Assembly (NCBI RefSeq): GCF_003545765.1
Contig: NZ_QXIO01000001.1
Span: forward strand, 248,001 to 312,000
DNA: 64,000 nucleotides
Source: Colwellia sp. RSH04
GTDB lineage: Bacteria; Pseudomonadota; Gammaproteobacteria; Enterobacterales; Alteromonadaceae
Reading direction: 5' to 3'
The position numbers were made by a program, and so were the translations under genes. The notes below the pieces were generated by a model. It had not been told where the DNA came from. It saw only the letters and a program-made list of their open reading frames with translations, and made no database searches. Of the stretch, positions 16,419 through 34,187 are shown one piece after another (position 1 is the stretch's first letter; the number at the start of each line of letters is the position of its first letter).

Positions 16419-16471
16419 TGGTACCGGAAGACGGACTTGAACCGTCACGCCCGAAGGCAACGGATTTTGAA
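16419..16471 (-). pseudogene. 3' half of the host tRNA-Leu(CAA), left island junction
   Basis: It holds the anticodon-loop end (core ATTTTGAA on the plus strand, 16464-16471), the 3' anticodon stem, variable arm, T arm, 3' acceptor strand and an encoded CCA. The sequence stops matching a tRNA exactly inside the anticodon loop. Joined to 34148-34187 through the shared 8-bp core it rebuilds an 85-nt tRNA-Leu with paired acceptor and anticodon stems. Confidence 0.88.
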
Positions 16472-16527
16472 AAGAACACGCCTAATTTTATTCTTTAATA
16501 TCAACAGAATAAAAACATCAAAAGACA

Positions 16528-16547
16528 CTTTGCAAATTCTTTGCAAA
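16528..16547. repeat. Paired CTTTGCAAA motifs, probable integrase arm sites (left)
   Basis: Two direct copies of CTTTGCAAA start at 16528 and 16539, 11 bp apart (one helical turn), between the left junction and the integrase gene. The same motif pair, spaced 10 bp, occurs at the right end (34042, 34052), which suggests arm-type binding sites. Confidence 0.6.
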
Positions 16548-16576
16548 ACAAATCATTTTGTTGAATACTAAAGTTT

Positions 16577-17848
16577 ATGACAACTCAAACAGAACGCCAC
16601 GACATCCAAGACGGATTGTACGTTTACAAACAAAACAACAGCTTGCGCTGGTATGCTCGCTTTGTACTCTACGGTAAATGGTATAGTAAAGCCACTAAAG
16701 AAAAGGAACTAGATAAAGCGATCGCCCGTGCTCACATTATATTTATGGAGCACAAAGTTAAAGCTGAAAACAATCTACTAGTTGATAGTAAACGATTTAA
16801 AGATGTGGCAGATCGCGTCATTAAAAACCTTCAAGCTGATCTTGATAATGGCTTCGGTAAAGTTACTTACCGTGACTATATACAAGCACTTAACAAGTAC
16901 CACATCCCTTTCTTTGATAGAACTTATATAACTAATATCGATCAAGATAAAATTCGAGAGTTTAATAACGAGCGAATTAAACAGTTAAAACGTGTTCCTG
17001 CAAAGTCAACACTGCTTACTCACAACTCGGCAATGAATTTGGTATTTAAAGAAGCTATTGAAAATAAGTGGATGATTGCCGCTCAGGTACCTTCACTTAA
17101 TGCTCAAGGCGAAAGTGGTAAAAGGCGCGCAGCCTTCAGCCAAGAAGAATATGATAAAGTTTACGACACTATTCTCGACTTGGTGGGCAATAGTCGCAAA
17201 GAAAAAACTAAACAAATCCGTGAATTGCTGCTCAGCTATATGGAATTTTGTGTTAATACTGGGATTCGTCCCGGCACTGAAATGGAAGGTATAACGTGGG
17301 GAGATATTGAAATGGCTCGCCAAGATCATAATGTTCGATTCAAAGTTAAAGTCCGTAAAGGTAAAACAACTAAACATACAGGCACTAGAACAGTTATAGC
17401 CCGCGACCAAATATGGGATTGTCTAGAAGAGCTACGAGAGCGTTTCCCTAACCGTAAACCTAATGACAAACTATTCCGACTTGAGGATGGCGAAACAACC
17501 AATGAATTAGGTGTAGCCTTTCGTAAAGCATTAGAAGAATGTGATTTAAAAGACTCACCTGATGGACCTAGAACACTTTATTCACTTCGGCATTCATATA
17601 TTACGTGGCAACTACTACGTCGAGATTTAAGGCTGGATATTCTTGCTAAACAATGTGGAACTAGCGTTGCCATGATTGAGCAACATTACAGCCATGTTGT
17701 ACCAAGTATGTTTGAAGAAGAGTTATCTGGTGTTAAGTTTAAAAATCAAATTAAGAAAGAAAAGCCTATGACATCAAAGGCATTAGCTATTATTGAAAAC
17801 CGCTTTCAAAGCTGGGAAGCCGAATATAAAAAGCGTGGTTGTATTTAA
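16577..17848 (+). CDS. int: Tyrosine-recombinase integrase of the island
   Basis: A 423-residue site-specific recombinase that should catalyse integration and excision at the tRNA-Leu core. An N-terminal arm-binding and SAM-like core-binding region (about 1-175) precedes the catalytic domain. The catalytic Arg is in NTGIRPG (about 230). The box II region reads YSLRHSY (about 335-341), with Tyr where HxLR has His, and the nucleophile lies in EQHYSHV (about 370). The C-terminal tail continues about 50 residues beyond the Tyr. The gene reads inward from the left junction, as is common for island integrases. Confidence 0.94.
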   Translation: MTTQTERHDIQDGLYVYKQNNSLRWYARFVLYGKWYSKATKEKELDKAIARAHIIFMEHKVKAENNLLVDSKRFKDVADRVIKNLQADLDNGFGKVTYRDYIQALNKYHIPFFDRTYITNIDQDKIREFNNERIKQLKRVPAKSTLLTHNSAMNLVFKEAIENKWMIAAQVPSLNAQGESGKRRAAFSQEEYDKVYDTILDLVGNSRKEKTKQIRELLLSYMEFCVNTGIRPGTEMEGITWGDIEMARQDHNVRFKVKVRKGKTTKHTGTRTVIARDQIWDCLEELRERFPNRKPNDKLFRLEDGETTNELGVAFRKALEECDLKDSPDGPRTLYSLRHSYITWQLLRRDLRLDILAKQCGTSVAMIEQHYSHVVPSMFEEELSGVKFKNQIKKEKPMTSKALAIIENRFQSWEAEYKKRGCI

Positions 17849-18234
17849 ACAACCAAGTTAAATAGAACCCCACACTATAAGTCATCTCAAATTCGACTAA
17901 AAGCATGCTGTTTTTTCTTAGCTATTTAATTGTTTCAACCTTGTGAATTTCGTGAAAATCTCTTTAAGTTAAGTGAGAAAATTTCCTACATCACTAAAGG
18001 TTTACCTCCACATCATTAAGTGTGCATAGTAACCATATAAACTTTGCCATAGAGCTGATAGAATCTACATTTAATCGGGTATCTAGATTTCAATTTGAAT
18101 GAGTTTTATTTAAAATCAATAAGTTAAAAAACAACGAATTATTAATGAATAATATTTCGTCAAATAAGACTTTACCTATCACGAAATACACTGTATAAAA
18201 AACCAGTACCAATAAAATCCAGAGAAATAAATTA
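17849..18234. other. Gene-free stretch between integrase and methyltransferase
   Basis: A 386-bp AT-rich region with no supported gene. A weak AT-rich inverted repeat around 18137-18160 (ATTATTAATGAATAAT core) lies upstream of the methyltransferase and might be a control site. I see no excisionase or controller-protein gene here. Confidence 0.3.
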
Positions 18235-19419
18235 ATGAATAAGCCTAAATTAATGTCGATATTTGCAGGTGGTGGTGGTCTTGATGAAGGATTTAAAGCC
18301 GCTGGCTATGACGTAAGTTGTAGTATAGATCTTGAAGAGTGGGCATGTGATACTTTACGTAAGAACAATCCTCAATCACAAGTTATTGGTCCCCCTCAAT
18401 ACTCGGGTGATGTCAAAGCCATGTCACCAGAAGAAGTTTCGAAGATTACAGGTATACAGCCTAATGAACTAGATATGATTATGGGTGGGCCTCCTTGCCA
18501 ACCTTTTAGTCAAGCTGCTTCCCAAAGGTTTTTAAAAACAGACATGAATTTCAAAAGAAAAGGCTTTGACTGTGAGGATAAAGGAACATTATTGTTTAAT
18601 TTTATTGAGTATGTTTTATTTTTCAAACCCAAAAACTTCTTGATAGAAAATGTGCCAGGACTTCTAACTGTTGATGGTGGTAAGCAACTGAATGTTGCAT
18701 TGAAAACGTTACAAGATGCTGGTTACATCATATCCGAACCTAAAATAATTGATGCGGTAAATTATGGTATTCCTCAATATAGACAACGTTTAATTATTTG
18801 GGGAAGCACTGAAGTTAAAAAGCCTGAATTACCAGAGCCTTCACACTCTTCTGCAGCTGATTTAATTTCACCACCTCAAAGAGTGGTTGCGCAAGCTTTG
18901 AGTAACCTAAGTAGTGAGTTAAAAAATACAGAAACTAGAGCCCATAAAGAATTATCTGTTGAACGCTATAAAACTCTAGAGTTTGGACAACGGGAAAAAC
19001 GAGGAAGAGTTGATCGACTCAACCCTTTCAAGCCAAGCAAAACAGTTATAGCTGGAGGTATGAAAGGCGGTGGTCGTTCTCATTTACATCCTTTTATAGC
19101 AAGAACCATGTCTGTCAGAGAGTGCGCTAGAATACAAACATTTTCAGACAGTTATGAGTTTACAGGTTCAATAGCAAGGCAATTTACTCAAGTCGGAAAT
19201 GCAGTCCCTCCCTTATTAGCAGAAAAAATAGCCTATCATATACTAAATAAACAATATGGAATTACAGTACCTAATTCATTTAAACACGAAGTGAATCTAA
19301 ACTTAGATACACCTGTCGAAACACTAGTAAACAACATGCTAATTAAGGCCATCAATGAAAAACCAGAATGGGTCTATAATTCACATTCAGAAGCTTCTAA
19401 GGGGAAAAAGCGAGCCTAA
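18235..19419 (+). CDS. DNA (cytosine-5) methyltransferase
   Basis: A 394-residue C5 methyltransferase transferring methyl from S-adenosylmethionine to cytosine. Conserved motifs are in canonical order: motif I FAGGGGLDEGF (10-20), motif IV GGPPCQPFSQA with catalytic Cys87, motif VI ENVPGL, motif VIII QYRQRL, a variable target-recognition region (about 200-275) and motif X QVGNAVPPLLA. The convergent McrBC-like operon next to it suggests this is the modification half of a restriction-modification system, or that its mark controls the nuclease. Its stop codon overlaps the stop of the nuclease gene on the other strand. The recognition sequence cannot be told from the protein. Confidence 0.95.
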   Translation: MNKPKLMSIFAGGGGLDEGFKAAGYDVSCSIDLEEWACDTLRKNNPQSQVIGPPQYSGDVKAMSPEEVSKITGIQPNELDMIMGGPPCQPFSQAASQRFLKTDMNFKRKGFDCEDKGTLLFNFIEYVLFFKPKNFLIENVPGLLTVDGGKQLNVALKTLQDAGYIISEPKIIDAVNYGIPQYRQRLIIWGSTEVKKPELPEPSHSSAADLISPPQRVVAQALSNLSSELKNTETRAHKELSVERYKTLEFGQREKRGRVDRLNPFKPSKTVIAGGMKGGGRSHLHPFIARTMSVRECARIQTFSDSYEFTGSIARQFTQVGNAVPPLLAEKIAYHILNKQYGITVPNSFKHEVNLNLDTPVETLVNNMLIKAINEKPEWVYNSHSEASKGKKRA

Positions 19420-20819
19420 ATAAGCTCACCTTTTGATAGATCTGTAATAAAAAGAGCCAATTGAGCAAAGGACTGCTCAGTGTTTTTCATCGTCCCAGTT
19501 AAATCAACACGCCAATAAAAAATGTTAACCTCATGAGTTATAAAATTTAATTTTGAAAAAGTACCGGAATCTGACTTTATTTTATCAAAAGCTTTTTGCC
19601 TTTTTTTCTCATATGAAGATCTACCTTCAGCACTTTGAATAGGGTACTTTGAACAATTTTTGTTGTTGCCCGGATAAACCAAAATCGCATAATCAGTATT
19701 AAAGCATTGTGCATAATAAGTAATTTGATAGATATCTGAATTAGATACTAATAGTTTTGAGTTTTCACTAACTGAATACTTATTTTTAGAATCTATTATA
19801 ATATTTTTAAATGATTTATTGTTATCCTTTGGTATGACGACAACATCAGGCTTAATTCTTTTCCCTTCCATTATAGGCTCTACTGGATGATCAATTTCTA
19901 GCTGTGAGCAAACATCAAAATTAGCTGGAAGTATTTGCTTTTCTAATTGTTGGCTTACAAGGCGTTCAAACAGCGCATCTAAATTAATTGTAAAATAAGG
20001 GGTAAATGAATCTTCTTCTCCACCTTCATAATGAAAACCATCATAAATTACTTGAGCGAGCGTTAAGCATTTCTCGTAATCTTTTCTGTGTAAGGTCGTG
20101 CTATTTGAAAGGCTTAGTTCATTAATATTAGGCACATAGTCAGATACTTCATGAAACACATTTAATAATTCACCTGCAATACCTTTAATTTCAGTGCACT
20201 TAGCTTCTTTCAAAACAGTACTTATAGCACCCTTAATATACTGATTTACATCCAGATCAGAAGTGGGTTCAGATATTTGTACAGTAGGAAATTCTGAAGC
20301 ATTCGAAATTGTAGATTGAAAATCAATGTTTCCCCTAATCTCGGGGTCCACTTTGGTAATATGCTGCCTACTTTTAATAACTCCCTGCTTAAGGACGTCA
20401 TAAACGGAAGATAAAAACGCTTTCGAAAAGTAATCTACAGAGGTAGTCAAAGCATCATACGAGACCTCTTCCTCAACAATTGTTTCACTATGATTCACCA
20501 GTTCTATTGCTCCAGCGACTTGAGCAAAGGCTAAACATTTCCCTACACTAATACCTGAAAATTTGGGTTCAAAAGTCAACTTAAAATATGAACAGTCAAC
20601 TACACCGACAACTGGCCCCGGAATAATAAGAATATCATCTAATTCAACCTGATATTGGAGTTTGAATATTTCAACACCAAAGCTAATTTTATGTTTTTTA
20701 GCTGCTGATTTTAAAACCATCAATATTGAGTTCTCATTATATTCAGAGCAATTTAAAGCTATTTTTTCTAATGAGAGAGGCTTTCCTACTGACAAATTGA
20801 AATTTGGAACAGTTATCAT
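19416..20819 (-). CDS. McrC-like nuclease subunit
   Basis: A 467-residue protein of the McrC type, the endonuclease partner of McrB. The C-terminal part carries a PD-(D/E)xK-like nuclease core: KPDVVVIP (about 322-330) followed by IIIDSKNKY (about 339-347), where Ser replaces the usual Glu/Thr in DxK, then the family segment DIYQITYYAQ. The N-terminal half would contact McrB. AGGA precedes the ATG at good spacing. It is third in a tight operon after the 291-aa gene and McrB, starting two bases after the McrB stop, and it interlocks tail to tail with the methyltransferase gene. Confidence 0.85.
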   Translation of the reverse strand: MITVPNFNLSVGKPLSLEKIALNCSEYNENSILMVLKSAAKKHKISFGVEIFKLQYQVELDDILIIPGPVVGVVDCSYFKLTFEPKFSGISVGKCLAFAQVAGAIELVNHSETIVEEEVSYDALTTSVDYFSKAFLSSVYDVLKQGVIKSRQHITKVDPEIRGNIDFQSTISNASEFPTVQISEPTSDLDVNQYIKGAISTVLKEAKCTEIKGIAGELLNVFHEVSDYVPNINELSLSNSTTLHRKDYEKCLTLAQVIYDGFHYEGGEEDSFTPYFTINLDALFERLVSQQLEKQILPANFDVCSQLEIDHPVEPIMEGKRIKPDVVVIPKDNNKSFKNIIIDSKNKYSVSENSKLLVSNSDIYQITYYAQCFNTDYAILVYPGNNKNCSKYPIQSAEGRSSYEKKRQKAFDKIKSDSGTFSKLNFITHEVNIFYWRVDLTGTMKNTEQSFAQLALFITDLSKGELI

Positions 20820-20821
20820 TT

Positions 20822-21781
20822 TTAGTCCTGAGCTGTATTTAACAAGGTTACTAAATTTATAAGATCTTGCTCATTTATATCATCACCAAAGTCTAGTTTT
20901 TGTCTTATTTCTGGAGTACCAAATAATTCATCAAGCTCCTTTTTATTACCTAAACCAATATATGCCTCAAGCTGGGGGAGTACAGTTTCATTGTAAACAC
21001 TCACTAGGTTTTTTAGTTTTATAGTTGAATCAACCTGCGGTACAAATAATGACTGCCCTAATGCCATATGTTTCCCTAGCATAGGGTGTTTAGTAATTCT
21101 TTTATTTAGCTTTTGAATTGAAGATACATATTCATTTATAGTAAATTCATCAAACTCAAAGGAGAATGAGTGGAGCCATTCGACTAATCCTTCATAATCA
21201 GGATTTACAAAGATAAATTTAAACCGCCTTCTAAGTGCTAAATCCAACTGCTTAATATTTCGATCAGCTGTATTCATCGTACCTATAATTACAAAGTTTT
21301 TAGGGAGTAGTAACTCATTCCCAAATTTAGATGTTTTGACACTTCTGCTATCACCGTCTAACAGCATCATTAACTCCCCAAAAATAGATGGGATATCTCC
21401 TCTATTGATTTCGTCTATTATTAGCAATTTCAACTGCTCATCGTCCGAACCAGCTGAATCTTTTATAAAATTGAAGAGTACTCCCTTTTTTGGCTCATAC
21501 TTGCCATTTACAATAGAATACCCTTCAATAAAATCTTGATAGCTATAGGATGGATGGAATTGTACAACTTCATAGTGTGCAATATCCTTACTCAATTCAT
21601 TCAACAATTTATCTACAGCGCGAGTTTTGCCGGTACCAGGAGGGCCACATAGAATAACGTGACTTCCACTTATAACCATATCCCTTAATTTATCTTCAGT
21701 TGCTGGCTTCTTCTGAATTGCAATATTTTCTATCTGAGTCATAGACTCAAAATCAGATTTTCTATCCATTGGATTTTGCAT
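20822..21781 (-). CDS. McrB-like AAA+ GTPase, short form
   Basis: A 319-residue AAA+ motor. Walker A GPPGTGKT is at 46-53, Walker B LLIIDEINRGD at 119-129, and the McrB signature MNTADR at 169-174, followed by LDLALRRRF as sensor and arginine region. Bona fide McrB uses GTP to translocate DNA and activate McrC. The usual N-terminal DNA-binding domain is absent: only about 40 residues precede Walker A. That role may fall to the 291-aa protein encoded immediately upstream, whose 3' end overlaps this gene by 20 bases. GAGGAAATCAATG gives a strong ribosome site. Confidence 0.9.
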   Translation of the reverse strand: MQNPMDRKSDFESMTQIENIAIQKKPATEDKLRDMVISGSHVILCGPPGTGKTRAVDKLLNELSKDIAHYEVVQFHPSYSYQDFIEGYSIVNGKYEPKKGVLFNFIKDSAGSDDEQLKLLIIDEINRGDIPSIFGELMMLLDGDSRSVKTSKFGNELLLPKNFVIIGTMNTADRNIKQLDLALRRRFKFIFVNPDYEGLVEWLHSFSFEFDEFTINEYVSSIQKLNKRITKHPMLGKHMALGQSLFVPQVDSTIKLKNLVSVYNETVLPQLEAYIGLGNKKELDELFGTPEIRQKLDFGDDINEQDLINLVTLLNTAQD

Positions 21782-22637
21782 TGATTTCCTCTACCCTTTT
21801 CAATATCAAACTTTTTATATTATGTAATGCGCTTTCCTTATCCTTTTTGGCAGGTTTACGCTCAAAATAATAATGAGTCTTTTCTACAGAATGTTTTGAT
21901 ATAAGATTTAAGCTTATATCTCCATTTGGTAAGTAATATGTATAACCACTAATACATAAAAACCCTAGTAAGTCCGTAATCTTACGCGTTAACTTATCCC
22001 CACTAGGCTTTAATTTAGAAATTGAATCACTATTCCGAGATTTGATTATTGCATCGGATAAACTTTTACATTGTTTATGATCTTGGGAAGGGACAAGTAT
22101 AAATTCTATTTCTCTAACATTTAAAAAGCATTGACTTTCATCTTTCTCTAATAGTTCAATTAGAACTTGTAGAATAAAGATCAAGGGGTACAGCTCTTTC
22201 CCTGAGGCTACCCATTCCTTCCAGTTATCTTCATAGGCAGGGTGAGGATATTTAAAGTTAAAGATTATAAAGTCATAAAATTGCTGACGTGAAATTTTAC
22301 CTGTTCCTAGAGCTTTTCCAAATTCAGTTAACTTAAGTTTTCCATTACTCATTTCTTTTGGGTACATAAGCAATAAAGATGTAAATAGCCTCTCTTTATT
22401 TCTAGTAAAGTCTCCTTCAGGGTTCCATAACAGATCTTCTGTTCCTGAACGGTTAGGTTTCCATGTGCTCTTTCTTGTTCGTTCCTCTAAAAGTCTTTCT
22501 AATTTTTTAATTTTAGGGTTTGATTCGCTAATGAACTCTCCTTCAAATAAATTCAAAACAGATAGTGCTGGCTGTAGCACTTCATAAACGATGTATTCTC
22601 GAAAAGCTTCGAATTTCCATAAAAGAGCTTGTGACAC
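21762..22637 (-). CDS. Unknown protein, first gene of the McrBC-like operon
   Basis: A 291-residue soluble, mainly helical protein that I do not recognise. It starts with GTG after AAGGA. Segments such as LKLTEFGKALGTGKISRQQF and YPHPAYEDNWKEWVASG resemble the non-catalytic parts of some restriction enzymes, and a basic stretch KLKPSGDKLTRKITDLLGFL may form a winged-helix-like element; this is impression, not proof. No nuclease motif was seen. Since the neighbouring McrB lacks a DNA-recognition domain, this protein is the natural candidate for target recognition. Overlap with mcrB implies coupled synthesis. Confidence 0.75.
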   Translation of the reverse strand: MSQALLWKFEAFREYIVYEVLQPALSVLNLFEGEFISESNPKIKKLERLLEERTRKSTWKPNRSGTEDLLWNPEGDFTRNKERLFTSLLLMYPKEMSNGKLKLTEFGKALGTGKISRQQFYDFIIFNFKYPHPAYEDNWKEWVASGKELYPLIFILQVLIELLEKDESQCFLNVREIEFILVPSQDHKQCKSLSDAIIKSRNSDSISKLKPSGDKLTRKITDLLGFLCISGYTYYLPNGDISLNLISKHSVEKTHYYFERKPAKKDKESALHNIKSLILKRVEEINAKSNG

Positions 22638-22903
22638 TTAATCTTCCTTATTAACTATCGAATAATTATAAAAATATTACTCGATAGTATGCCTTTAAAA
22701 TTAGGTTCAGTAAATCCAAATAAAGCCCTGTTTTATAAGAAGGATTTGTTCACTAATATTCATTGACTTTATAAATGTATATATTAAGTACACTCTAACG
22801 TTACAGTTTTTTTCCAGAATTAGGTTGTCAATTTTATCTCTATTATCTCCTAAAAATTCCATGCAATGTGGACTTTTAAAAGTTAAACATTACAGGTGAT
22901 TTC

Positions 22904-23446
22904 ATGAGTCAGAAACTAGCTTACATCCGCGTATCAAGTATTGACCAGAATCTTGATAGACAATTACACGGCATGAATTTCGATAAAACTTTCGAAGATA
23001 AATGTAGTGGTAAAGATACTAATCGTTCCGGACTAAATGAGCTAATTAGTTATGCACGTGAAGGAGATGAAGTATACGTTCATGATATTTCACGCATGGC
23101 ACGCAATACAGCAGATCTACTTAGTCTCGTGAAAAAATTTAATGACAAAGGAGTATCACTCAAATTCGAAAAAGAAAACTTAGTGTTTTCAGGCGAAACT
23201 AATCCGATGAATGATTTAATGCTTACTCTTCTTGGTGCCATCTACCAATTTGAACGTAGCATGATCCTTGAGCGCCAACGCGAAGGTATTCAGATAGCTA
23301 AAGCAAAAGGTAAATTTAAAGGTAAACAACCAAACAAACAACTTCATCAAAAGATCCAAGAATTATTCAAGTCAGGTATGAGTAAACGGGCTATATCTAT
23401 TGAGCTTGGCTGCTCAAGGCCAACAGTTTACAGGGCATTAGATTAG
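22904..23446 (+). CDS. Serine recombinase (resolvase/invertase family)
   Basis: A 180-residue small serine recombinase. The catalytic Ser11 lies in YIRVSSIDQNLDRQ. The arginine-rich active-site region DISRMARNTADLL and the helix with ERQREGIQIAKAKGKFKG lead to a C-terminal helix-turn-helix (SKRAISIELGCSRPTVYRAL). Proteins of this size act as DNA invertases or resolvases, often of plasmids and transposons. I see no obvious inverted pair of crossover sites nearby. It is divergent from the McrBC-like operon across a 266-bp gap. Its presence alongside a tyrosine integrase suggests the island contains a module of plasmid origin. Confidence 0.93.
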   Translation: MSQKLAYIRVSSIDQNLDRQLHGMNFDKTFEDKCSGKDTNRSGLNELISYAREGDEVYVHDISRMARNTADLLSLVKKFNDKGVSLKFEKENLVFSGETNPMNDLMLTLLGAIYQFERSMILERQREGIQIAKAKGKFKGKQPNKQLHQKIQELFKSGMSKRAISIELGCSRPTVYRALD

Positions 23447-23496
23447 TGCTTTTGTAAAAGAGTTGTCTCAAATTGTGACACGCGAATCAAGCCTAA

Positions 23497-24081
23497 CTAA
23501 CTTTCCCATAAGGCTCTTTCTAGAATAAACATAAGCTCCATATCAAATTTATGCTTATGTTTACCTTTTCTATCCTCTATGCCTTCTTTAAGCCACAACC
23601 TTAGCCCTTCAATATTAAGCTCTTCGCTGTTTGAATGACGATAAGCATCCTTAAGTTGCTTTTCATTATTATTGATCATTTGCAAACAAGCATCTTCAAA
23701 CGATTGTCTCTGTTCCTTCTCAACTTTAATCGTATAAAACTTTTCAGTATATCTAGTGTTAGCAATCTGACGTCCAAATCTTTCCCATTCAGAACTAAGC
23801 TGAGTAGTTCCAATTTCATTCAAGTTATAGATTATTGTTTCAGCTGTAGTACTGTCACCATCAATAATATGCCGCTCTATTCGTTTTGCTGATACCTGAC
23901 ATAACTTTCTCTTCTCACCCACTTGTAAGGTGGCAAGTTGCTTTAATAGCTTACTCAATTTATTAACAACTGCCTTTGTAGCCGTTTTTTTCTCGTGAGC
24001 CTTATTAGCTAACTTAAGCAGCTTTTCTCCATGCTCAATCCAATCGATTGGATCTTTCGGTTGATTAGGTTTAGTCGACAT
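23497..24081 (-). CDS. Hypothetical protein divergent from the possible initiator
   Basis: A 194-residue charged, probably helical soluble protein. No family was recognised. The middle has Lys-rich stretches (KLSKLLKQLATLQVGEKRKL), and the C-terminus reads LMFILERALWES. GAGG precedes the ATG. Its start lies 20 bp from the first of three iteron-like repeats, so it may bind or be controlled by them; a partition or copy-control role is speculation. It converges with the serine recombinase gene. Confidence 0.7.
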   Translation of the reverse strand: MSTKPNQPKDPIDWIEHGEKLLKLANKAHEKKTATKAVVNKLSKLLKQLATLQVGEKRKLCQVSAKRIERHIIDGDSTTAETIIYNLNEIGTTQLSSEWERFGRQIANTRYTEKFYTIKVEKEQRQSFEDACLQMINNNEKQLKDAYRHSNSEELNIEGLRLWLKEGIEDRKGKHKHKFDMELMFILERALWES

Positions 24082-24100
24082 AATTAAGCCTCAAAATAAA

Positions 24101-24163
24101 CATACCGAAAAGTATAATTGAAAACATACCAAAAAGTACATTTAAATCACACCGAAAAGTGTG
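24101..24163. repeat. Three iteron-like repeats
   Basis: Three direct copies of a motif near CATACCGAAAAGTATA begin at 24101, 24125 and 24148 (periods 24 and 23 bp). The third reads CACACCGAAAAGTGTG. Regular spacing near two helical turns between divergent genes resembles an iteron array of a replication origin or a cooperative operator. The remaining 24164-24357 region is AT-rich with no other repeat noted. Confidence 0.65.
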
Positions 24164-24357
24164 ATTCTTAATTGCGAGTTATTTGTTCTTCGGTAACGAA
24201 TAGTGTTCTTAAATTTGAAAATAGTAATTTCGTATCTAACTGACAACTGTAAAAAGTTTATAAGGTCATTAGAACTTTTGAAAATTAGAGTTTTAATGAG
24301 GTACGCGTAGTTTGATATAGCTACACAACAAACAATGATATTGAACGGAGTTTCAAA

Positions 24358-26228: not shown

Positions 26229-26266
26229 AACCTACCCATTTTAAATGTAATATTTTGAATTTTAGT

Positions 26267-26914: not shown

Positions 26915-26972
26915 GGTTTCAAAGAGGCTAATGAGGGGCCGATCAGCCCCATAAGAGACTTTGTGCTGTACA

Positions 26973-26995
26973 GAGCATTATTACAAATAATGCTC
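26973..26995. terminator. Hairpin between the 184-aa gene and umuC
   Basis: A perfect 10-bp stem GAGCATTATT/AATAATGCTC with a 3-nt loop lies between convergent stops. A second GC-rich hairpin, GGGGC/GCCCC, lies at 26935-26950. Together they probably end both transcripts; neither has a long T run. Confidence 0.5.
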
Positions 26996-27010
26996 AATTT
27001 CCAAGTTAAT

Positions 27011-28270
27011 TCAACAACGAATTTTAGGTATGTCTCGCCAATTACTTGTGTACTGAGGACTTAAGAAGTGCCGCTTCATTTGCCACACTTCTGATTGCCC
27101 TTCAGCACCAAGCCTTAATGTACCTTGTCCATAACGATGATTGATTCTATCAAGGCAATTCATTAACTGTGGATTAGAGTTGTCAGGCATAAACAAATCA
27201 GGTTGTTGAAATGCCCGACTTTCAAGTTCAATTGCACCTACTCCGCAACGATAAAACCGAACGCCTTCTACAAAGATATCATCCAAGACCAAACTAATGG
27301 CCTTGGCAATATCACAACTATTATCAGTGGCGATTGGAAACCTATAAACCATTGCTTGCTTATAATATTGACCTTCATCATGTGGTGAACTGGATGCGAA
27401 AACCATTAGCTTTTTAACCGTTGATGATTGTTGCCTTACTTTTTTGCCGACGATGACGCCATGTGCTGACAATGCGGATTTTAGTGTATGAATATCCGTA
27501 ATACGTTGACCAAAACTTCGAGTTGAAAAGATTTCCTGCTTCGGCTCTTTTACTTCATCCCACGATAAACAGCTTATGCCATTGAGTTCGCTGACGGTTC
27601 GCTCAGTCACTACACTAAACTCTTTTCTTATGGCTTTAGGCGACTGTAAAGATAATTGGTAGGCAGTATTAATGCCCTGCATAGTTAAGCGTTTTGATAT
27701 CTTTCGCCCTATCCCCCAAACATCACCGACAGCCATTTTCTCTAATATTTCTTTGCCGCTTTTAGCATTATCAATAACTGCAACGCCATTATAACCAGCC
27801 AATTTTTTAGCCGCATGATTAGCCGCCTTCGCTAAGGTAGACGTTGTACCAAAGCCAACGCCAACTGGTAGTTTAGTTTCTTTCCATATAGCCCTTCTGA
27901 TGTCATGACCATATTGGTGCCAATCTTTAATTACACCACCATAGTTTTTGAAATGTAAAAATGATTCATCAATAGAATAGACATAATGATTATCACTGTA
28001 CCGAGCGATGATATTCATCATCCTCTCACTTAAATCGGCATAAAGTTCGTAGTTAGAAGAACGAACCACAACACCGTGCTTTTGTAGAAACCATTTAAGC
28101 TTAAAGTAAGGCTCAAACTTAGGAATACCAAGTTTTCTAGCAATAGGACAAACGGCACAAATGCACCCATCATTGTTAGTTAAAACAACTACAGGTTTAT
28201 TTCTTATGCTTGGATCAAATACCTTTTCGGCACTAGCATAAAAAGAAACCGCATCAACTAATGCATACAT
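27011..28270 (-). CDS. umuC: DNA polymerase V catalytic subunit UmuC
   Basis: A Y-family translesion polymerase of 419 residues, the family's standard length. Catalytic acidic residues are seen in DAVSFYASAE at the N-terminus and in YSIDESFLHF near residue 100; the helix-hairpin-helix region reads GDVWGIGRKISKRL, and the little finger and C-terminal UmuC domain follow. It makes error-prone bypass polymerase with two UmuD'. The start overlaps the umuD stop by 13 bases. Comparable umuDC pairs (rumAB and others) are frequent on integrative elements and conjugative plasmids. LexA control acts through the box before umuD. Confidence 0.95.
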   Translation of the reverse strand: MYALVDAVSFYASAEKVFDPSIRNKPVVVLTNNDGCICAVCPIARKLGIPKFEPYFKLKWFLQKHGVVVRSSNYELYADLSERMMNIIARYSDNHYVYSIDESFLHFKNYGGVIKDWHQYGHDIRRAIWKETKLPVGVGFGTTSTLAKAANHAAKKLAGYNGVAVIDNAKSGKEILEKMAVGDVWGIGRKISKRLTMQGINTAYQLSLQSPKAIRKEFSVVTERTVSELNGISCLSWDEVKEPKQEIFSTRSFGQRITDIHTLKSALSAHGVIVGKKVRQQSSTVKKLMVFASSSPHDEGQYYKQAMVYRFPIATDNSCDIAKAISLVLDDIFVEGVRFYRCGVGAIELESRAFQQPDLFMPDNSNPQLMNCLDRINHRYGQGTLRLGAEGQSEVWQMKRHFLSPQYTSNWRDIPKIRC

Positions 28271-28671
28271 GCGGATAATTCAGGCGCTTGGTGATGAAGC
28301 CTAATGGAACGAGTTACTACTCCTTCTAATTGAAAATCATCTTCAGGTTTTATCGTTACAGGTGCGTGGACTTTTGAGGCTGATAATAACCTTGCCTGTG
28401 GTTTATCAATTAACTTACAAACAAAACAACCATTAAGGTTAGCAACAACCACATCACCATTTCTGGCGGTTAGTGAACGATCAACAATAAGTAAATCACC
28501 ATCAAAAATGCCAATACCTTCCATCGATTGACCCGAGGCTTGACCAATGAAAGTTGCATTAGGGTGCTTAATCAATAATTGGTCAAGCGACAAACCAAGC
28601 TCTTTATATTCTGCCGCAGGACTTTCAAAGCCAGAGATACCAGCTTCAATATAGATAGGAATAACTTTCAT
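28258..28671 (-). CDS. umuD: Polymerase V accessory protein / self-cleaving peptidase UmuD
   Basis: A 137-residue S24 peptidase that cleaves itself when RecA filaments form, giving UmuD' for polymerase V. The catalytic Ser is in SGQSMEG and the Lys in FVCKLI. The cleavage region reads ISGFESPAAEY, so the usual Cys-Gly scissile pair appears as Ser13-Gly14, which should still be cleavable. The order umuD-umuC and the 13-base overlap are typical. A LexA box lies 18 bp before the start. Confidence 0.95.
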   Translation of the reverse strand: MKVIPIYIEAGISGFESPAAEYKELGLSLDQLLIKHPNATFIGQASGQSMEGIGIFDGDLLIVDRSLTARNGDVVVANLNGCFVCKLIDKPQARLLSASKVHAPVTIKPEDDFQLEGVVTRSIRLHHQAPELSACMH

Positions 28672-28688
28672 AAATAAAAACCACTTAA

Positions 28689-28704
28689 CTGTATATAAAA
28701 ACAG
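28689..28704 (-). promoter_or_regulatory. LexA (SOS) box of umuDC
   Basis: CTGTATATAAAAACAG fits the gammaproteobacterial LexA consensus CTGT-N8-ACAG exactly, 18 bp upstream of umuD. It sits inside a longer inverted repeat (AAAACCACT ... AGTGGTTTT, about 28677-28716), which ends in a T run on the minus strand and may also terminate the endonuclease transcript reading into it. Confidence 0.88.
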
Positions 28705-28750
28705 TATAGTGGTTTTTTATTTTATTAGGAAGTTTATTGTGACTTCAGGT

Positions 28751-29551
28751 TTAAGGCGGGTTGACTTTACATGCCTCGTCAACAAATGAATTACCAAGCC
28801 CTTGTTCTGTTTCTATTCGTTTGTTTCTCAGGCATTCCCACTCATCAACAGGATCTAATTTATCCCAGTATAAATACATAGTTAATTCAGTATCTGGTAT
28901 CTGAGCATTATGTTCTTTAATCATATGGAAATAGGTACGTGCAATATTACCTTTAACATTATCAGGAGGCTCAGCTACGTCTTTATCAAAATCGATTTCA
29001 AAGTCGCACTGACCATATGACCTTTGTTCACCTTGAACAACCGCAAAAGCAAAGTTTGAACGGTCACCATTTAATTCACCTACCGCTGGCGTAAGGTTAT
29101 TCATATCATCATGACCTTTTTTAAATGCTTGGTTTAACTTATAGGCACAATCACGACCACTCATAAACTTACCATTAGATTTCTTACACTCAGGGTAATT
29201 TCTTTTATTTTTCCACTCATCTAAATGACCACCAATCACATGAGCAGGCACAATATGTTCCCACTCAATACGGCTGACTCTGGCATTAGGTTTGCCTTTC
29301 TTAGTAATTGGATTTCGAGGCTTGTATCCGCAGTTTTCAGGATAAATCATGGTTTCATGTGTGTTGCCGTCACCGTCTTTATCCTTAGTATCATCAAAAA
29401 CATAATCGCAACCACAATAGAAGGTGGTGTGTTTATCAAAGTACACAGCCTTTTCAGCTTTTGATTTCGCATTAGAAAAGCTAGTTGGGTAATCAGCTAA
29501 AGCTGTTGCCGATAACAAAGCCGACAATACAAATAATAAAAAACGGTTCAT
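28751..29551 (-). CDS. Endonuclease I (periplasmic/secreted DNase)
   Basis: A 266-residue nonspecific DNase of the EndA/Vvn/Dns family with a signal peptide (about 1-20, ending ATALA). The beta-beta-alpha-metal nuclease core shows EWEHIVPAHV with the general-base His, and NLTPAVGELNGDRSN, where the Asn and Glu bind metal. Several Cys pairs are typical for the exported form. The start is ATG 29551 (or GTG 29554) after AAGGATATA. Related DNases on mobile elements, such as IdeA of SXT-type ICEs, degrade incoming DNA and block natural transformation. It is followed on the same strand by umuDC. Confidence 0.93.
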   Translation of the reverse strand: MNRFLLFVLSALLSATALADYPTSFSNAKSKAEKAVYFDKHTTFYCGCDYVFDDTKDKDGDGNTHETMIYPENCGYKPRNPITKKGKPNARVSRIEWEHIVPAHVIGGHLDEWKNKRNYPECKKSNGKFMSGRDCAYKLNQAFKKGHDDMNNLTPAVGELNGDRSNFAFAVVQGEQRSYGQCDFEIDFDKDVAEPPDNVKGNIARTYFHMIKEHNAQIPDTELTMYLYWDKLDPVDEWECLRNKRIETEQGLGNSFVDEACKVNPP

Positions 29552-29568
29552 CACTATATCCTTAGTTT

Positions 29569-29865
29569 CTAAAGCCTTTCATAGGCTGGTATTTCAAAGT
29601 AACTATCATCTCTCGACTTCAAAGCTTCTTTGAATGCTTCCTTTTTACTTTTTCGTTCAACAATACTTTCTCCAAATACATGAAGGTGAGCACTTTCCAT
29701 TATTTGAGCAGACTGCTCTCTATCAATTACCGATAACAATTCCCCTGCCTGTATAAAGCCTTGAATGCGGTTTTTAAGTTCAGCATCGGGCTTTCTAGCC
29801 AAAACAGATTCAAAATATTGAGTAAATAGCGAGGTTAGCTTGTCCGTAAAAAATTTATTATCCAT
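29569..29865 (-). CDS. Small hypothetical protein upstream of endonuclease I
   Basis: A 98-residue mainly helical, soluble protein with a charged C-terminus. No family was recognised and there is no signal peptide, so it is cytoplasmic. It ends 17 bp before the endonuclease start and probably shares its transcript, but whether it acts with the DNase is not known. It is divergent from the AAA ATPase gene. Confidence 0.6.
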   Translation of the reverse strand: MDNKFFTDKLTSLFTQYFESVLARKPDAELKNRIQGFIQAGELLSVIDREQSAQIMESAHLHVFGESIVERKSKKEAFKEALKSRDDSYFEIPAYERL

Positions 29866-30014
29866 TGGTTTTCAAAGCACTCATAAAATATCCATATGTC
29901 GATGATATTCCTTATTTAACTGAAACACTAGCCGAATAAATCTGTCAGAGGACACCATACTAAAACGGCTTTCAGGCTGCTATTTTGGACTCAAAGCAAT
30001 CAACTAGGAATACC

Positions 30015-32036
30015 ATGAAAACAGTCGAATCTAATGCACGGTACATCGCATCAACTATCGCGGCTAAGATGTTAGATATTAACGCTTTTGATGAAGGGTT
30101 TATTGAAGATGTACCAAGAGATATTATCAGCAGAATTACAGGAAAACGCTTTAAGAAGGTTTACGGTAATTGCCCTCAAAAAAAGCTATCCGCATTTAAA
30201 ACAGCATTATCGATGGTCAACATAGATGAATCTTTGACAGTTTCATTTGACCATAATTTACAACTTTTAATCGAGAAACTTGAATTGCCTGAAACATGTA
30301 AGCAGGTATTAAAGCTTTGCGCTGTTACAACTATAAATGAAGGTCTTTATGCGTTTTTCGAAGAGCACCTTCGCCATTGGGTAAGTGATGTCGATATTGT
30401 CATTGCCGAAACATTAACGTTAACCGTAGACGAACTAACGTGCGCAATTCAATTGATATCAAATACTTCGCTTTTTGAGCAAAGCGATAAATCTATTTTT
30501 GGGTTGTTGTTAATGCCCTATGCGTTGGCTAACAATTTAATGAAGCAAAAAGCCACTTCATACCATGATTTACTCGACGGTCTGTATTATCAAATACCAA
30601 CAACTTCTTTGACCTTAAACGATTATCCACATATTGAGCTGAGTTATGTCAGTGAGTATCTGAAGTATGCAGTGGCTAACAAAACGGTTGGTGTAAATAT
30701 TCTTTTATACGGGAGTGTTGGCACAGGCAAAACATCTTTATCACAAGTATTAAGTCGGTATGCAAAAGCGAGCTTGATTGCCGTTAAAGCCGCAGGAGGA
30801 AACCTATATCGATACACCGATGAAATAAACTCGGAGCAAAATTCAGGTCAATTAAGGTTACAGCACTTTAGGCTAATGCAAAAACTATTTAAGCCAGATA
30901 AGTTTAGCTGCCTATTAATCGATGAAGCAGAGGATATCTTCAGTGGATTCGCTAACGGCTCAAGGGTAAGCAAGGATAGACTAAATAGCACATTAGAGAG
31001 CAATACATTAACAGCGGTGTGGATCACTAACCATATTGATTGCATTCCTCAGTCGGCTATAAGACGGTTTAGTTATGTATTAAATGTTGATGTGCCGCCC
31101 AAGCATATCAAGGCAAAAGTACTAGCAGCACCGCTTAAAGGCTTATGGCTGTCACAAAACTACAAAAATGGGCTCGCTAATATTCCTGATTTAGCACCTG
31201 CGCATGTGGTTAACGCCAGCAACATTGCTAAGGCACTGCACTTAACAAGCAAGAATGCTGAAGAATGTATCGACCATCATATTGACCAGTGTTTATCGGC
31301 TTGTGGTTTACAGACTTCGGTAACTAGCTACAAACCAGAAATGGATTTTGACTCACGCTTTATTAACTTAAGCGGCTCACATACCAAAATTGAACATGTG
31401 ATTGATACAGTAACTAACTTCACAGGCGCGAGATGTTTATTACTTGGCGCAGCTGGTACAGGGAAAAGTGCCTTGGTTCATCATATTGCCGAAACACTAG
31501 AGCAAGAGTTAATTACCATCAAACCTAGTGATGTACTTTCAAAGTATGTCGGTGAAGCCGAGCAAAATATTGCCAACCTTTTTAAGCAAGCAAGTAACAG
31601 TGATGCGATTATTTTCTTGGATGAAGTAGATAGTGTTTTGACTTCTAGAGATATTACTTCTGAATTACATCAGAAACAGCTTGTAAATCAGATCCTCATT
31701 GAATTAGACCGAACTGAACAAACTGTGTTCGCGGCAACAAACTACGCTCAAAATCTCGATAACGCACTCCTACGCCGTTTCGATTTTAAATTGAATTTTG
31801 AATACTTAACAACTAAGCAAGTACACACATTGTACGAAGAAAATTTTGGTAAATGCTCAACAACTATCAAAAACAAACTTACCGAGTTAAAGCTCCTAAC
31901 ACCGGGAGACTTTGCAATTACTTCAAGACGCAATCGGATGAATAAAAAGCCACTAAGTGACAGTAAAAACCTCGACATATTAACCCAAGAAAACAACCGT
32001 AAATTACCAAGAAAAGCTATCGGCTTTGTGAACTAA
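30015..32036 (+). CDS. Double AAA+ ATPase
   Basis: A 673-residue protein with two AAA modules. Module 1: Walker A GSVGTGKTS (about 233) and Walker B LLIDEAED (about 301). Module 2: Walker A GAAGTGKSA (about 478), Walker B IIFLDEVDS (about 532) and a second region of homology ATNYAQNLDNALLRRF. About 200 N-terminal residues form a helical domain of unknown role. The layout recalls p97/Vps4-like unfoldases and ATPases seen on integrative elements. I start it at the ATG at 30015, with AGGAA just before it, not at the TTG at 29985. The next gene, 66 bp on, is probably co-transcribed. The substrate is unknown; the pair may act in defence or element maintenance. Confidence 0.85.
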   Translation: MKTVESNARYIASTIAAKMLDINAFDEGFIEDVPRDIISRITGKRFKKVYGNCPQKKLSAFKTALSMVNIDESLTVSFDHNLQLLIEKLELPETCKQVLKLCAVTTINEGLYAFFEEHLRHWVSDVDIVIAETLTLTVDELTCAIQLISNTSLFEQSDKSIFGLLLMPYALANNLMKQKATSYHDLLDGLYYQIPTTSLTLNDYPHIELSYVSEYLKYAVANKTVGVNILLYGSVGTGKTSLSQVLSRYAKASLIAVKAAGGNLYRYTDEINSEQNSGQLRLQHFRLMQKLFKPDKFSCLLIDEAEDIFSGFANGSRVSKDRLNSTLESNTLTAVWITNHIDCIPQSAIRRFSYVLNVDVPPKHIKAKVLAAPLKGLWLSQNYKNGLANIPDLAPAHVVNASNIAKALHLTSKNAEECIDHHIDQCLSACGLQTSVTSYKPEMDFDSRFINLSGSHTKIEHVIDTVTNFTGARCLLLGAAGTGKSALVHHIAETLEQELITIKPSDVLSKYVGEAEQNIANLFKQASNSDAIIFLDEVDSVLTSRDITSELHQKQLVNQILIELDRTEQTVFAATNYAQNLDNALLRRFDFKLNFEYLTTKQVHTLYEENFGKCSTTIKNKLTELKLLTPGDFAITSRRNRMNKKPLSDSKNLDILTQENNRKLPRKAIGFVN

Positions 32037-32102
32037 ACCAACCAGTTTTATAACCCGAAGTATTTCGCTTCACACAACCTAAACCTTTAAAAGGAAACAA
32101 CC

Positions 32103-32540
32103 ATGACTAAATCATTATTGAGTACACTCAAGACCGCGCCACGTCCTGAAAAAACTTCAGACAATCCAGTATTAAAACGCCGTGAAAAGCTGTTAGCCAA
32201 ATTGGATCAACAGCTGGCTATGGCAGAAGCCCACATTGCTGGCGAAACTTATACTGCCTACCGTGAAAAGTGGCAGAAAAATCCTGAAACGGGTCAACAG
32301 GAGAAAGTAAGAATTCCTAAGAACGTTGCCAAGTGGTTCTACAAGCGCAACAACCAATATTTCTTTGAAGTGCGTTATGCCAACAAAGCACTTGAGTTAA
32401 GCAAAGGTAACCATGCTATTGAAGTTGGTGAGCAAAAAAATTTAACCAATGTTATCCGCACCGTGATTGATGCTGTTGTATCGGCTGAATTTGACCCTTT
32501 CCTCGAAAAAGTATCTACTAACCTAACGAAGAAACGGTAA
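32103..32540 (+). CDS. Small conserved island protein (DUF6641-like)
   Basis: A 145-residue basic protein. The order NPVLKRREKLLAKLDQQLAM, then PKNVAKWFYKRNN, YFFEVRYANKALEL and a C-terminal helix TNVIRTVIDAVVSAEFDPFL resembles small proteins of the DUF6641 type carried by integrative elements; this is from memory. No catalytic motif was seen. AAAGGAAACAACC gives a good ribosome site. It follows the double-AAA gene and is likely its partner. Confidence 0.6.
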   Translation: MTKSLLSTLKTAPRPEKTSDNPVLKRREKLLAKLDQQLAMAEAHIAGETYTAYREKWQKNPETGQQEKVRIPKNVAKWFYKRNNQYFFEVRYANKALELSKGNHAIEVGEQKNLTNVIRTVIDAVVSAEFDPFLEKVSTNLTKKR

Positions 32541-32548
32541 GATAATGA

Positions 32549-32584
32549 ACAAGAAAGTAACGATATACATCGTTACTTTCTTGT
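32549..32584. terminator. Strong hairpin between convergent island genes
   Basis: A perfect 14-bp stem (ACAAGAAAGTAACG at 32549-32562 with CGTTACTTTCTTGT at 32571-32584) and an 8-nt loop lie between the DUF6641-like gene and the 59-aa gene. It probably ends transcripts from both sides. Confidence 0.75.
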
Positions 32585-32599
32585 AATTAATAAAATATA

Positions 32600-32779
32600 C
32601 TAATCCTGCTTTTTTTCTAAGGTACTTGAAACTTTTACTTCGTTAGAGTCACCTTGCGCAGAATCTTCTTTAGATGAAGATATAACCTTAGCAAACATTT
32701 TTACCGCGACACTACGAATTTGATCCCTTTCTTTGTGGTATGAAAACTCATTAGGCTTACTCATAAGAATTTGTCTCAT
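32600..32779 (-). CDS. 59-residue protein coupled to the GAF-like membrane protein
   Basis: This short gene opens with ATG overlapping the stop of the 302-aa gene (ATGA), a standard sign of translational coupling, and runs 59 codons to a TAG. The protein starts MRQILMSKPNEFSYHKERD, is charged and has no membrane segment; its C-terminal third is rich in Ser and Lys. No family was recognised. The overlap and the strong terminator just after its stop support it as a real gene and likely partner of the membrane protein. Confidence 0.6.
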   Translation of the reverse strand: MRQILMSKPNEFSYHKERDQIRSVAVKMFAKVISSSKEDSAQGDSNEVKVSSTLEKKQD

Positions 32780-33684
32780 GCTGCTTTACCTCCACTTTCC
32801 TTAAATTGTTTCATTGAAAAAAGGTATAGTTCAAGTTCCACTCGATCCGCAACCTCATCTAGAATCTTTTCACATGCTCTACACTCAGCTTCGTCATAAG
32901 GAGTGCATATATATTGACCATATACCGCAATGGTGAAAATGTAAACAAATTCGACGTTACTAACTGTAACACGAACAGGTTTACAAAAGACGGAACCTTT
33001 CCCTGTTTTTTTTGAACGATTCGATTCAAAGAATACACCTTCCTTGATTCCTTTTCTAAGATCTGGAATAAACAAACTATCACCAGATTCAAAACAGAAG
33101 CGCGCAGTTGAACTCCCTTCCATTAGCTCTCTTGCTTTAGTATGTTGTTTTTGCGAATCACACTTTAATGCATACCACCACTTAGGCCCACTTAGGTTGC
33201 CTTGAATAATAGTAATGCCAATATTTTTTTGGTCTATACCTAACCCTGAGACTAAAAATCTTTTTGTACCGTCCAGCACATGCTCCAACTGATCTCTTGG
33301 GTGTGTAATCGTTTTAAAAATGTCACCCGTAGGCTTTAGAGATTTAGCCTTATTATTAAATCTATCCCGCTTTTTTTTAACTAGTTCGTTAAAAAAGGTA
33401 ATCATAGACTCAGTAATCTTTTCGTATTTAGCTGTAACCTGACCCTTACAGCTTTCAGCAATTCCTTTTATAAACAATATGATAACAGTCATTCCTGCTA
33501 ATATACTGAATATAACAGTGTGTATATCCTGATAATTTTTAACCCACGTCCAATCATTACCCCATATATCTAGGGTGCCATAATAAAGCCCTAGTATAGG
33601 AGGAACGAAAATACTTAAAAAAGGTGAACTAAGAAAATCAATAACCCTGTTATTGACAAATATGAAATATAAAAATTTTTTCAA
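32776..33684 (-). CDS. Two-helix membrane protein with GAF-like domain
   Basis: A 302-residue protein. Two hydrophobic helices lie at about residues 17-37 and 54-74, followed by a basic coiled-coil linker (about 80-130). The cytoplasmic part (about 130-290) looks like a GAF domain: FCFESGDSLFIPDL, then GSVFCKPVRV, a strand pair around VYIFTIAVYGQY, and a final helix CEKILDEVADRVELELYL. No output enzyme domain is attached. It might sense a small molecule or nucleotide signal at the membrane. It is coupled to the 59-aa gene and stands alone at the island's right end, next to the tRNA. The GAF call is by eye. Confidence 0.65.
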   Translation of the reverse strand: MKKFLYFIFVNNRVIDFLSSPFLSIFVPPILGLYYGTLDIWGNDWTWVKNYQDIHTVIFSILAGMTVIILFIKGIAESCKGQVTAKYEKITESMITFFNELVKKKRDRFNNKAKSLKPTGDIFKTITHPRDQLEHVLDGTKRFLVSGLGIDQKNIGITIIQGNLSGPKWWYALKCDSQKQHTKARELMEGSSTARFCFESGDSLFIPDLRKGIKEGVFFESNRSKKTGKGSVFCKPVRVTVSNVEFVYIFTIAVYGQYICTPYDEAECRACEKILDEVADRVELELYLFSMKQFKESGGKAA

Positions 33685-33790: not shown

Positions 33791-33824
33791 CAAAAAAGCC
33801 CTATCCGACTAAGGACAGGGCTTT
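33791..33824 (-). terminator. Terminator of the island tRNA-Leu
   Basis: On the minus strand AAAGCCCT pairs with AGGGCTTT (33795-33802 with 33817-33824) and is followed by TTT, just after the tRNA 3' end. It differs in sequence from the host tRNA's terminator at 16385-16413. Confidence 0.75.
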
Positions 33825-33836
33825 CTATATAATTAA

Positions 33837-33921
33837 TGGTACCGGTGGGCGGACTCGAACCGCCACGCATTGCTGCAACGGATTTTGAATCCGTCGTGTA
33901 TACCAATTTCACCACACCGGC
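33837..33921 (-). tRNA. Intact tRNA-Leu (anticodon CAA) carried by the island
   Basis: 85 nt with encoded CCA. The acceptor strand GCCGGTG pairs with CACCGGT (first pair G-U), the D arm is GTGGTGAAATTGGTA, the anticodon stem is ACGGA/TCCGT around loop TTCAAAA (anticodon CAA, reading UUG), there is a long class-II variable arm, and the T arm is GGCGG-TTCGAGT-CCGCC. All stems pair. It lies inside the island, about 230 bp from its right end, and has the same anticodon as the host tRNA the island has split. It differs from that tRNA by paired changes in the acceptor and T stems. Confidence 0.93.
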
Positions 33922-33945
33922 AAAGGCTTGTAGCTAACTTTTCAG

Positions 33946-34060
33946 TTTGCAAAGAAATCAATTTTTGTATCTAAAAACCGAACTCTTTATAAACTAACCA
34001 ACCTTAAAACTAGGTCAGTAATTTTTGTAATCTCGTAAAAACTTTGCAAATCTTTGCAAA
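33946..34060. repeat. TTTGCAAA motifs, probable integrase arm sites (right)
   Basis: The motif occurs as TTTGCAAAG at 33946-33954 and as a pair of CTTTGCAAA at 34042 and 34052, between the island tRNA and the right junction. The pair mirrors the one at the left end. The rest of 33922-34147 is AT-rich without a gene. Confidence 0.55.
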
Positions 34061-34147
34061 AAAATAGTAAATACTAACTTATCTTGTAGCTCAATGTAAT
34101 TAGCTGGGTACTTTAAAATGTCTTCAAAATACCTATATACACGTTCA

Positions 34148-34187
34148 ATTTTGAATCCGTCGTGTCTACCAATTCCACCACTCCGGC
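34148..34187 (-). pseudogene. 5' half of the host tRNA-Leu(CAA), right island junction
   Basis: It holds the 5' acceptor strand GCCGGAG, the D arm GTGGAATTGGTAGAC, and the 5' anticodon stem ACGGA up to the loop, then the 8-bp core (34148-34155), after which tRNA similarity stops. It pairs with the 3' half at 16419-16471. The 34188-34321 stretch to the TetR gene shows no further feature. Confidence 0.88.

Follow-up and report, generated by a model that had tools for sequence, protein, structure and literature searches.

A genomic island of Colwellia sp. RSH04 which splits the host tRNA-Leu(CAA) gene and carries a complete tRNA-Leu(CAA) of its own

A stretch of 64,000 nucleotides from Colwellia sp. 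RSH04 (contig NZ_QXIO01000001.1, positions 248,001 to 312,000 of the forward strand; hereafter the window, with positions counted from its first letter) contains a genomic island of 17.7 kb which interrupts a gene for tRNA-Leu(CAA). The two halves of this host gene are found at the two junctions of the island, each with a copy of a short core, ATTTTGAA, which comprises the anticodon loop and one further base. A second, complete tRNA-Leu(CAA) gene is located within the island close to its right junction, and a gene for a tyrosine integrase close to the left one. In detail, the features that determine the structure of the locus are the following:

16419..16471, minus strand: displaced 3′ half of the host tRNA-Leu(CAA), left junction (sequence, ARAGORN)
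16464..16471, unstranded: left copy of the core ATTTTGAA
16577..17848, plus strand: tyrosine integrase of 423 amino acids (phrog_1 integrase, 1.7e-36)
33793..33826, minus strand: terminator-like hairpin just downstream of the island tRNA, conserved in four genomes
33837..33921, minus strand: intact island tRNA-Leu(CAA) (ARAGORN, Rfam), 226 bp inside the right end as counted from the right core
34148..34155, unstranded: right copy of the core ATTTTGAA
34148..34187, minus strand: stranded 5′ half of the host tRNA-Leu(CAA), right junction

The two cores, 8 bp long, are 17,684 bp apart from start to start. Joined at the core, the halves give an 85-base tRNA-Leu(CAA) with its stems (ARAGORN), which is identical in 85 of 85 positions to the uninterrupted tRNA-Leu(CAA) of two genomes of the same genus (G022 and G008; such handles designate genomes throughout, G000 being that of the window) and differs by one base from that of three others (G009, G003, and G004). 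A chance match of the halves was rejected, as the joined sequence equals an existing gene over its entire length. Empty sites are present in relatives: the alignment of G022 spans the joined site over 210 bp with 90% identity, and G009 has the gene order PpiC, intact tRNA, TetR, and RND and is 96% identical in the 100 bp that span the core. No tRNA was called by ARAGORN on the left half, the right half, or the joined element ends (attP). An earlier note on this DNA had described the two halves with their common 8-bp core, the 85-nt tRNA that they form, and the failure of either junction to rebuild it; these points were all borne out, and the uninterrupted gene that it expected in relatives is the one seen in G022 and G009. 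With an integrase near one end, flanking direct repeats, and empty sites in relatives, the island is an insertion into a once-normal tRNA gene. Mis-assembly of the junctions is unlikely and was rejected as the main cause, because the same layout recurs in other genomes.

The note had also concluded that the host copy was destroyed and left split. The host gene is indeed split in its anticodon loop and unrestored, but the cell keeps a tRNA-Leu(CAA), namely the intact island copy, which the note had missed. This copy is the sole tRNA of the window (ARAGORN and Rfam) and is identical to the host gene in 71 of 85 positions, differing in the remaining 14. The genome (4.15 Mb in 71 contigs) gave 64 tRNA matches, and among those that were typed (matches of 81 bases or more, plus some others) the leucine tRNAs were TAG (two), TAA (three), GAG (one), and CAA (one, the island copy). 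A pattern search allowing up to three mismatches found no second CAA stem-loop of such kind in the genome. The host tRNA-Leu(CAA) has been replaced whole, which goes beyond mere loss, and the island copy is the sole intact one found at the search levels used. The same tRNA is present, 85/85 identical, in G061, G062, and G063, whose records are named Thalassotalea, Colwellia, and Shewanella; in genomes of these three names the stretch just upstream is closely similar and the terminator similar. A second terminator-like site (33997-34019, minus strand) is located between the island tRNA and the host 5′ half. The stretch that holds it is conserved in part among relatives, and the site might insulate the island tRNA against the host promoter.

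The intact tRNA could alternatively be the product of a canonical half-restoring island, composed of the host 5′ half and an island 3′ half, with the outer 5′ half as a relic of a second event. Canonical islands do use this very site, in G025 and in ICEMh1 (PMC6861422). However, the outer halves fit each other, as their identity to the genes of G022 and G008 shows, whereas the intact copy agrees with the joined gene at 71 positions only; restoration at the right end was rejected on this ground. Moreover, the intact copy lies well inside the island, and the layout recurs in relatives. This explanation is given hardly any credence.

The genome G025, sister of the window genome in the tree of the GlnD gene (a quick tree of one marker gene with 8 of 36 inner branches open, in which the rows of G009 and G027 are partial), provides an example of the canonical arrangement. 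An integrase-like protein, identified by reading its sequence, is placed beside an intact tRNA-Leu(CAA) on the TetR side, and a single displaced 3′ half is found about 16 kb away. No spare 5′ half was detected at this locus in a looser fossil search (30 same-genus loci, one of which, that of G023, offered no intact tRNA for comparison; seven loci added later were not part of it), and the integrase-like protein has no detectable similarity to the integrase of the window. G025 follows the half-restoring scheme at the same site. The window island does not conform to it, as no attP tRNA part rebuilds the gene at either junction.

The integrase scan of genome contigs yielded 16 loci in 15 genomes. 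In 14 of these loci the integrase is preceded, at a distance of no more than 260 bp, by a tRNA 3′ half that ends in the core; 12 of the halves are of Leu(CAA) and two of Phe(GAA), the latter both in Neiella. At loci L064 and L067, a pattern search placed the 3′ halves beside both integrases. At the other end, a tRNA followed by a spare 5′ half occurs in all 15 genomes (14 Leu(CAA) and one Phe(GAA)), and in the 14 former the spacing from the Leu(CAA) match to the spare 5′ half, one to the next, is 145-257 bp; G061 has two spare 5′ halves. The first copy is intact by ARAGORN in 12/12 Leu(CAA) loci fetched whole, a count which leaves out G075, cut by a contig end, and G071. The complete layout is present on a single contig in the same-genus genomes G011, G020, and G024. 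A split host gene is characteristic of the whole family, and the case of the window is no isolated accident.

In the case of Neiella, a contig of 350,660 bp carries one intact tRNA-Phe with two spare 5′ halves, 176 bp one to the next, and a contig of equal length carries two integrases, each beside a Phe 3′ half. The arrangement is that of two insertions nested at the tRNA-Phe site. No further tRNA-Phe was matched in the Neiella genome with up to three mismatches, and the island tRNA there should therefore be essential.

The right junction reads TTTTGAA, with the leading A missing, in the related islands of G020, G024, G065, and G067; the sequence in common may thus be as short as the 7-nt anticodon loop, with the anticodon stem on both sides. 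Since the PpiC gene, a chromosomal neighbor of the tRNA, is placed inside the islands of G064 and G011, where it adjoins the island tRNA, this tRNA may have been captured together with its host flank.

Other arrangements of half genes were also seen. In a search across the order, G037 and G223 each gave two exact 5′-half matches at a distance of about 15 kb. Of the two in G037, a single one is an intact tRNA, a layout as for an island displacing a 5′ fragment. Outside the genus, close pairs of tRNA-Leu(CAA) 5′ halves, each with one intact copy, occur in G127 (L221, 92 bp), G213 (L220, 154 bp), and G256 (L219, 167 bp).

Within the genus, a tRNA-Leu(CAA) was called by ARAGORN in 36 of 39 genomes, that of G031 being a truncated hybrid; in the other three the gene is split (G023), at a contig end (G027), or not found (G032). 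At 90% identity these genes fall into type A, which is the type of the split host gene (11 genomes), type B (9), type C (13), and three singletons, i.e., type D of the window genome and those of G006 and G031. Types A to D are separated from one another by 12 to 22 differences in 85 positions. For tRNA-Leu(TAA), by contrast, 16 same-genus genomes showed a copy, and 14 of them agree fully over a 52-base part; G024 has one extra, divergent tRNA-Leu(TAA) copy. Near-sisters in the GlnD tree may be of different type, for instance G033 (B) and G076 (C), or G034 (A) and G001 (C).

Clear 5′-half fossils adjoin the intact tRNA in 8 of the 39 genomes, of which the looser fossil search covered a part. 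The fossil is of another type than the intact tRNA in five of them (G000, G002, G006, G020, and G029) and of the same type in three (G011, G024, and G076); weaker fossils were found in G010 and G017. G020 has the two halves of a type-B gene on either side of an island whose tRNA is C-like. For G029, the match to the integrase was limited to 54 of its 423 residues, and the tRNA beside its type-B fossil is the only CAA copy matched, an indication that the tRNA has outlasted the integrase. The tRNA-Leu(CAA) of G031 (L151) is chimeric, with a B 5′ half, a C 3′ half, and mismatched acceptor-stem ends, and arose perhaps from recombination between halves of different tRNAs. Because several unrelated types exist together with 5′-half fossils of other types, tRNA-Leu(CAA) has probably been swapped repeatedly in the genus.

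Several observations weigh against such replacement or narrow its extent. Two of the 16 integrase loci (L054 and L062) have no 3′ half within 260 bp of the integrase. In G011, G024, and G076 the island tRNA and the split tRNA share their type, and replacement there therefore leaves the sequence type unchanged. The type labels also keep a phylogenetic signal in the single-marker GlnD tree: across 33 genomes (singletons G000, G006, and G031 excluded), labels A, B, and C change at least 9 times, against a mean of 15.6 and a minimum of 10 in 200 shuffles, and inheritance and switching thus both contribute to the types. A search for a consensus promoter of the island tRNA was negative; the one match in the stretch is on the opposite strand, below the shuffle mean of 3.2. 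The three copies of tRNA-Leu(TAA) may read UUG, which leaves the dependence of the cell on the island tRNA unproven. In G023, a nearly complete genome, a tRNA-Leu(CAA) 3′ half is about 0.5 kb from a type-B 5′ half (L223 and C44:9090-9700) and no intact tRNA-Leu(CAA) was seen, so that the tRNA may be dispensable; this state represents either tRNA loss or an assembly gap.

The last three of these points, i.e., the missing promoter match, the three tRNA-Leu(TAA) genes, and the split gene of G023, speak for a reading in which the host tRNA-Leu(CAA) was destroyed and nothing further matters, with UUG read by tRNA-Leu(TAA) and the island tRNA as idle cargo. On the contrary, an intact tRNA of the same isoacceptor stands beside the junction throughout the family, also for tRNA-Phe with no other copy matched, and the island tRNA is conserved in every base over three named genera. 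Idle cargo is considered improbable. The island tRNA could also be carried for other reasons, for instance codon supply or the evasion of defenses that cut tRNAs, its match to the split gene being coincidental. Such roles have been proposed for phage tRNAs, in the text cited (PMC10865867), and defense-like genes are present on the island. Nevertheless, the carried and the split isoacceptor agree in 15 of 15 genomes, for Leu and Phe targets alike, and codon-supply or defense roles could be combined with replacement. A coincidental match is thought very improbable. For whole-tRNA replacement itself, dependence of the host on the island tRNA is doubtful in the case of Leu(CAA) and likely in that of Phe(GAA).

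The remaining features of the island and its surroundings are as follows:

13659..13937, minus strand: PpiC-like gene, host neighbor of the tRNA in several relatives
14322-15983: AbgT-type transporter gene, here between the PpiC-like gene and the tRNA half
16528..16547, plus strand: pair of CTTTGCAAA copies (at 16528 and 16539), putative arm-type integrase sites
18235..33684, unstranded: cargo with a C5 DNA methyltransferase, McrBC-like genes, a resolvase, UmuC/UmuD-like genes, endonuclease I, an AAA ATPase with a DUF6641 protein, and unknowns
33946-33954, minus strand: fifth copy of CTTTGCAAA
34042..34060, plus strand: second pair of CTTTGCAAA copies (at 34042 and 34052), putative arm-type sites
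34322..34990, minus strand: TetR-family gene, conserved right-hand host neighbor

The left end is ordered as core, CTTTGCAAA pair, and integrase, and the right end as terminator-like hairpin, tRNA, CTTTGCAAA pair, and core. All five copies of CTTTGCAAA in the window are confined to the two island ends, as expected of arm-type integrase sites. Their number is unremarkable by itself, since five was reached in 9 of 100 shuffles, and only their placement is unusual. Comparable repeat pairs are located upstream of several related integrases.

The integrase had no match in Pfam (0.001), NCBIfam (0.01), or PDB sequences (0.1), nor in 50,697 phage records, and no confirmed relative in viral contigs. 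Pfam, with 17 island proteins scanned, and PHROGs, with 15 of them (all but UmuC and UmuD), revealed no phage structural or packaging family. With these families scanned and the integrase absent from the phage and viral collections, the island was rejected as a phage for now. Phage families of other or unknown function were matched by the AAA ATPase, the DUF6641 protein, endonuclease I, and the methyltransferase, and because of such matches the island may have a satellite relation. A plasmid search with the right end gave tRNA-sized matches only (18-24% of the query, 17 records).

Elsewhere in the window, a simple repeat at positions 16118-16183, left of the split tRNA, begins with ATTTTGA in several copies, a sequence similar to the core ATTTTGAA, and continues with copies of TTTTTGCA; it is probably a microsatellite. 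A second, divergent GlnD gene is placed at 9320-11908 (minus strand); the other copy in the genome is 37% identical to it, and among the 39 same-genus genomes a close match to the window copy was found in G036 only (62%). The stretch 59760-59876 (plus strand) matches the Rfam family V_AS9 (Vibrio RNA AS9) with 56.1 bits against a gathering score of 50.

The nearest known system is the tRNA-dependent lysogeny established in actinobacteriophages (Fionnbharth, cluster L, and Gaia), in which, according to the cited text, the core is short, the host tRNA is not restored, and the phage tRNA is required (PMC10865867). Gaia attaches in tRNA-Leu(CAA) with an 8-bp core (PMC10865867), and its record shows a tRNA-Leu(CAA) 286 bp after the integrase. 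The window island similarly has an integrase assigned to the tyrosine family from its sequence, a short core shared with the host tRNA (8 bp, cores in that mechanism being about 10 bp long), a tRNA that is not rebuilt, and a tRNA-Leu(CAA) of its own. The window integrase has no detectable similarity to that of Gaia, and, unlike in Gaia, the tRNA is at the end far from the integrase. Those phages, as described, are temperate, belong to Actinobacteria, and have proven tRNA dependence, whereas the island is gammaproteobacterial, has no recognized structural phage genes, and has a putative tRNA dependence. By the tests made, the island appears to work like tRNA-dependent lysogeny without being a phage.

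Other cases are related to a different degree. The same phage study points to prophage Lj965 of Lactobacillus johnsonii (PMC10865867). Two prophages of Sinorhizobium meliloti inactivate tRNA-Leu(UAG) and bring a similar tRNA, which the authors describe, in the text cited, as substitution by a foreign tRNA (PMC11476347). The central split of the host tRNA and the functionally similar tRNA on the element are common to them and the window island; the former are two prophages of Alphaproteobacteria at another tRNA, whereas the family described here shows stacked fossils and a probable genus-wide turnover. Islander covers islands whose attP restores the split tRNA (PMC4383910), and in ICEMh1, which attaches in the same loop of this tRNA, one complete copy remains at attL (PMC6861422), as their cited descriptions state. 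A tyrosine integrase, attachment in the anticodon loop, and a displaced tRNA fragment are shared with these elements; in contrast to their single copy, kept or rebuilt via a tRNA part of attP, the window island has no such half, and a second complete gene replaces that of the host. In the literature searched, no report was recognized of whole-tRNA replacement by a non-phage island, nor of serial replacement by such islands. What is new, the mechanism being already known in phages, is whole-tRNA replacement by a gammaproteobacterial island without recognized phage structural genes, together with the record of serial replacement.

Taken together, the element is very probably an integrative genomic island working by whole-tRNA replacement. 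As suggested by the junctions, the crossover made by the tyrosine integrase would join a short core in attP to the anticodon loop of the host tRNA-Leu(CAA), with the anticodon stem as flanking inverted repeat. There is no tRNA half in attP, and the host gene is therefore split and inactivated upon integration. The loss would be compensated by the complete island tRNA-Leu(CAA), a gene which is present with its own terminator and presumably expressed. The cell would then rely on the island for this isoacceptor, which should favor retention of the island; in the tRNA-Phe version this dependence should be absolute. Because no matching half is needed, usable hosts would include those whose tRNA differs outside the anticodon arm, and such freedom from matching the host acceptor and T stems fits the spread over several genera. 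A similar point on the choice of attB when a whole tRNA is carried is made in the cited text of the phage authors (PMC10865867). The resident tRNA, now that of the island, could be split by a later island and could outlast its own, and serial gene replacement would follow, as the fossil halves and tRNA types support.

In a wider sense, we moderately favor the view that these elements form a marine gammaproteobacterial, non-phage island family whose way of life is the replacement of whole tRNA genes, those for Leu(CAA) and Phe(GAA). Each new island would insert into the tRNA of its predecessor, and a single-copy gene would turn over horizontally across the genus. Half-gene fossils would be stacked in the process, a chimeric tRNA would arise now and then, and the Phe hosts would be addicted to the island.

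The phage authors call, in the text cited, for further work on the prevalence of this lysogeny beyond actinobacteriophages and regard its relation to canonical systems as unclear (PMC10865867). The family of the window suggests an answer on prevalence, from non-phage elements in another phylum, and the question of relation becomes directly testable, as two sister genomes (G000 and G025) show two strategies in the same tRNA gene. The results also suggest that the ends of such islands could be misplaced by island finders which look for an intact tRNA together with a fragment, a principle given in the cited account of Islander (PMC4383910). For the hosts, the locus shows a route for the horizontal replacement of a usually single-copy tRNA gene.

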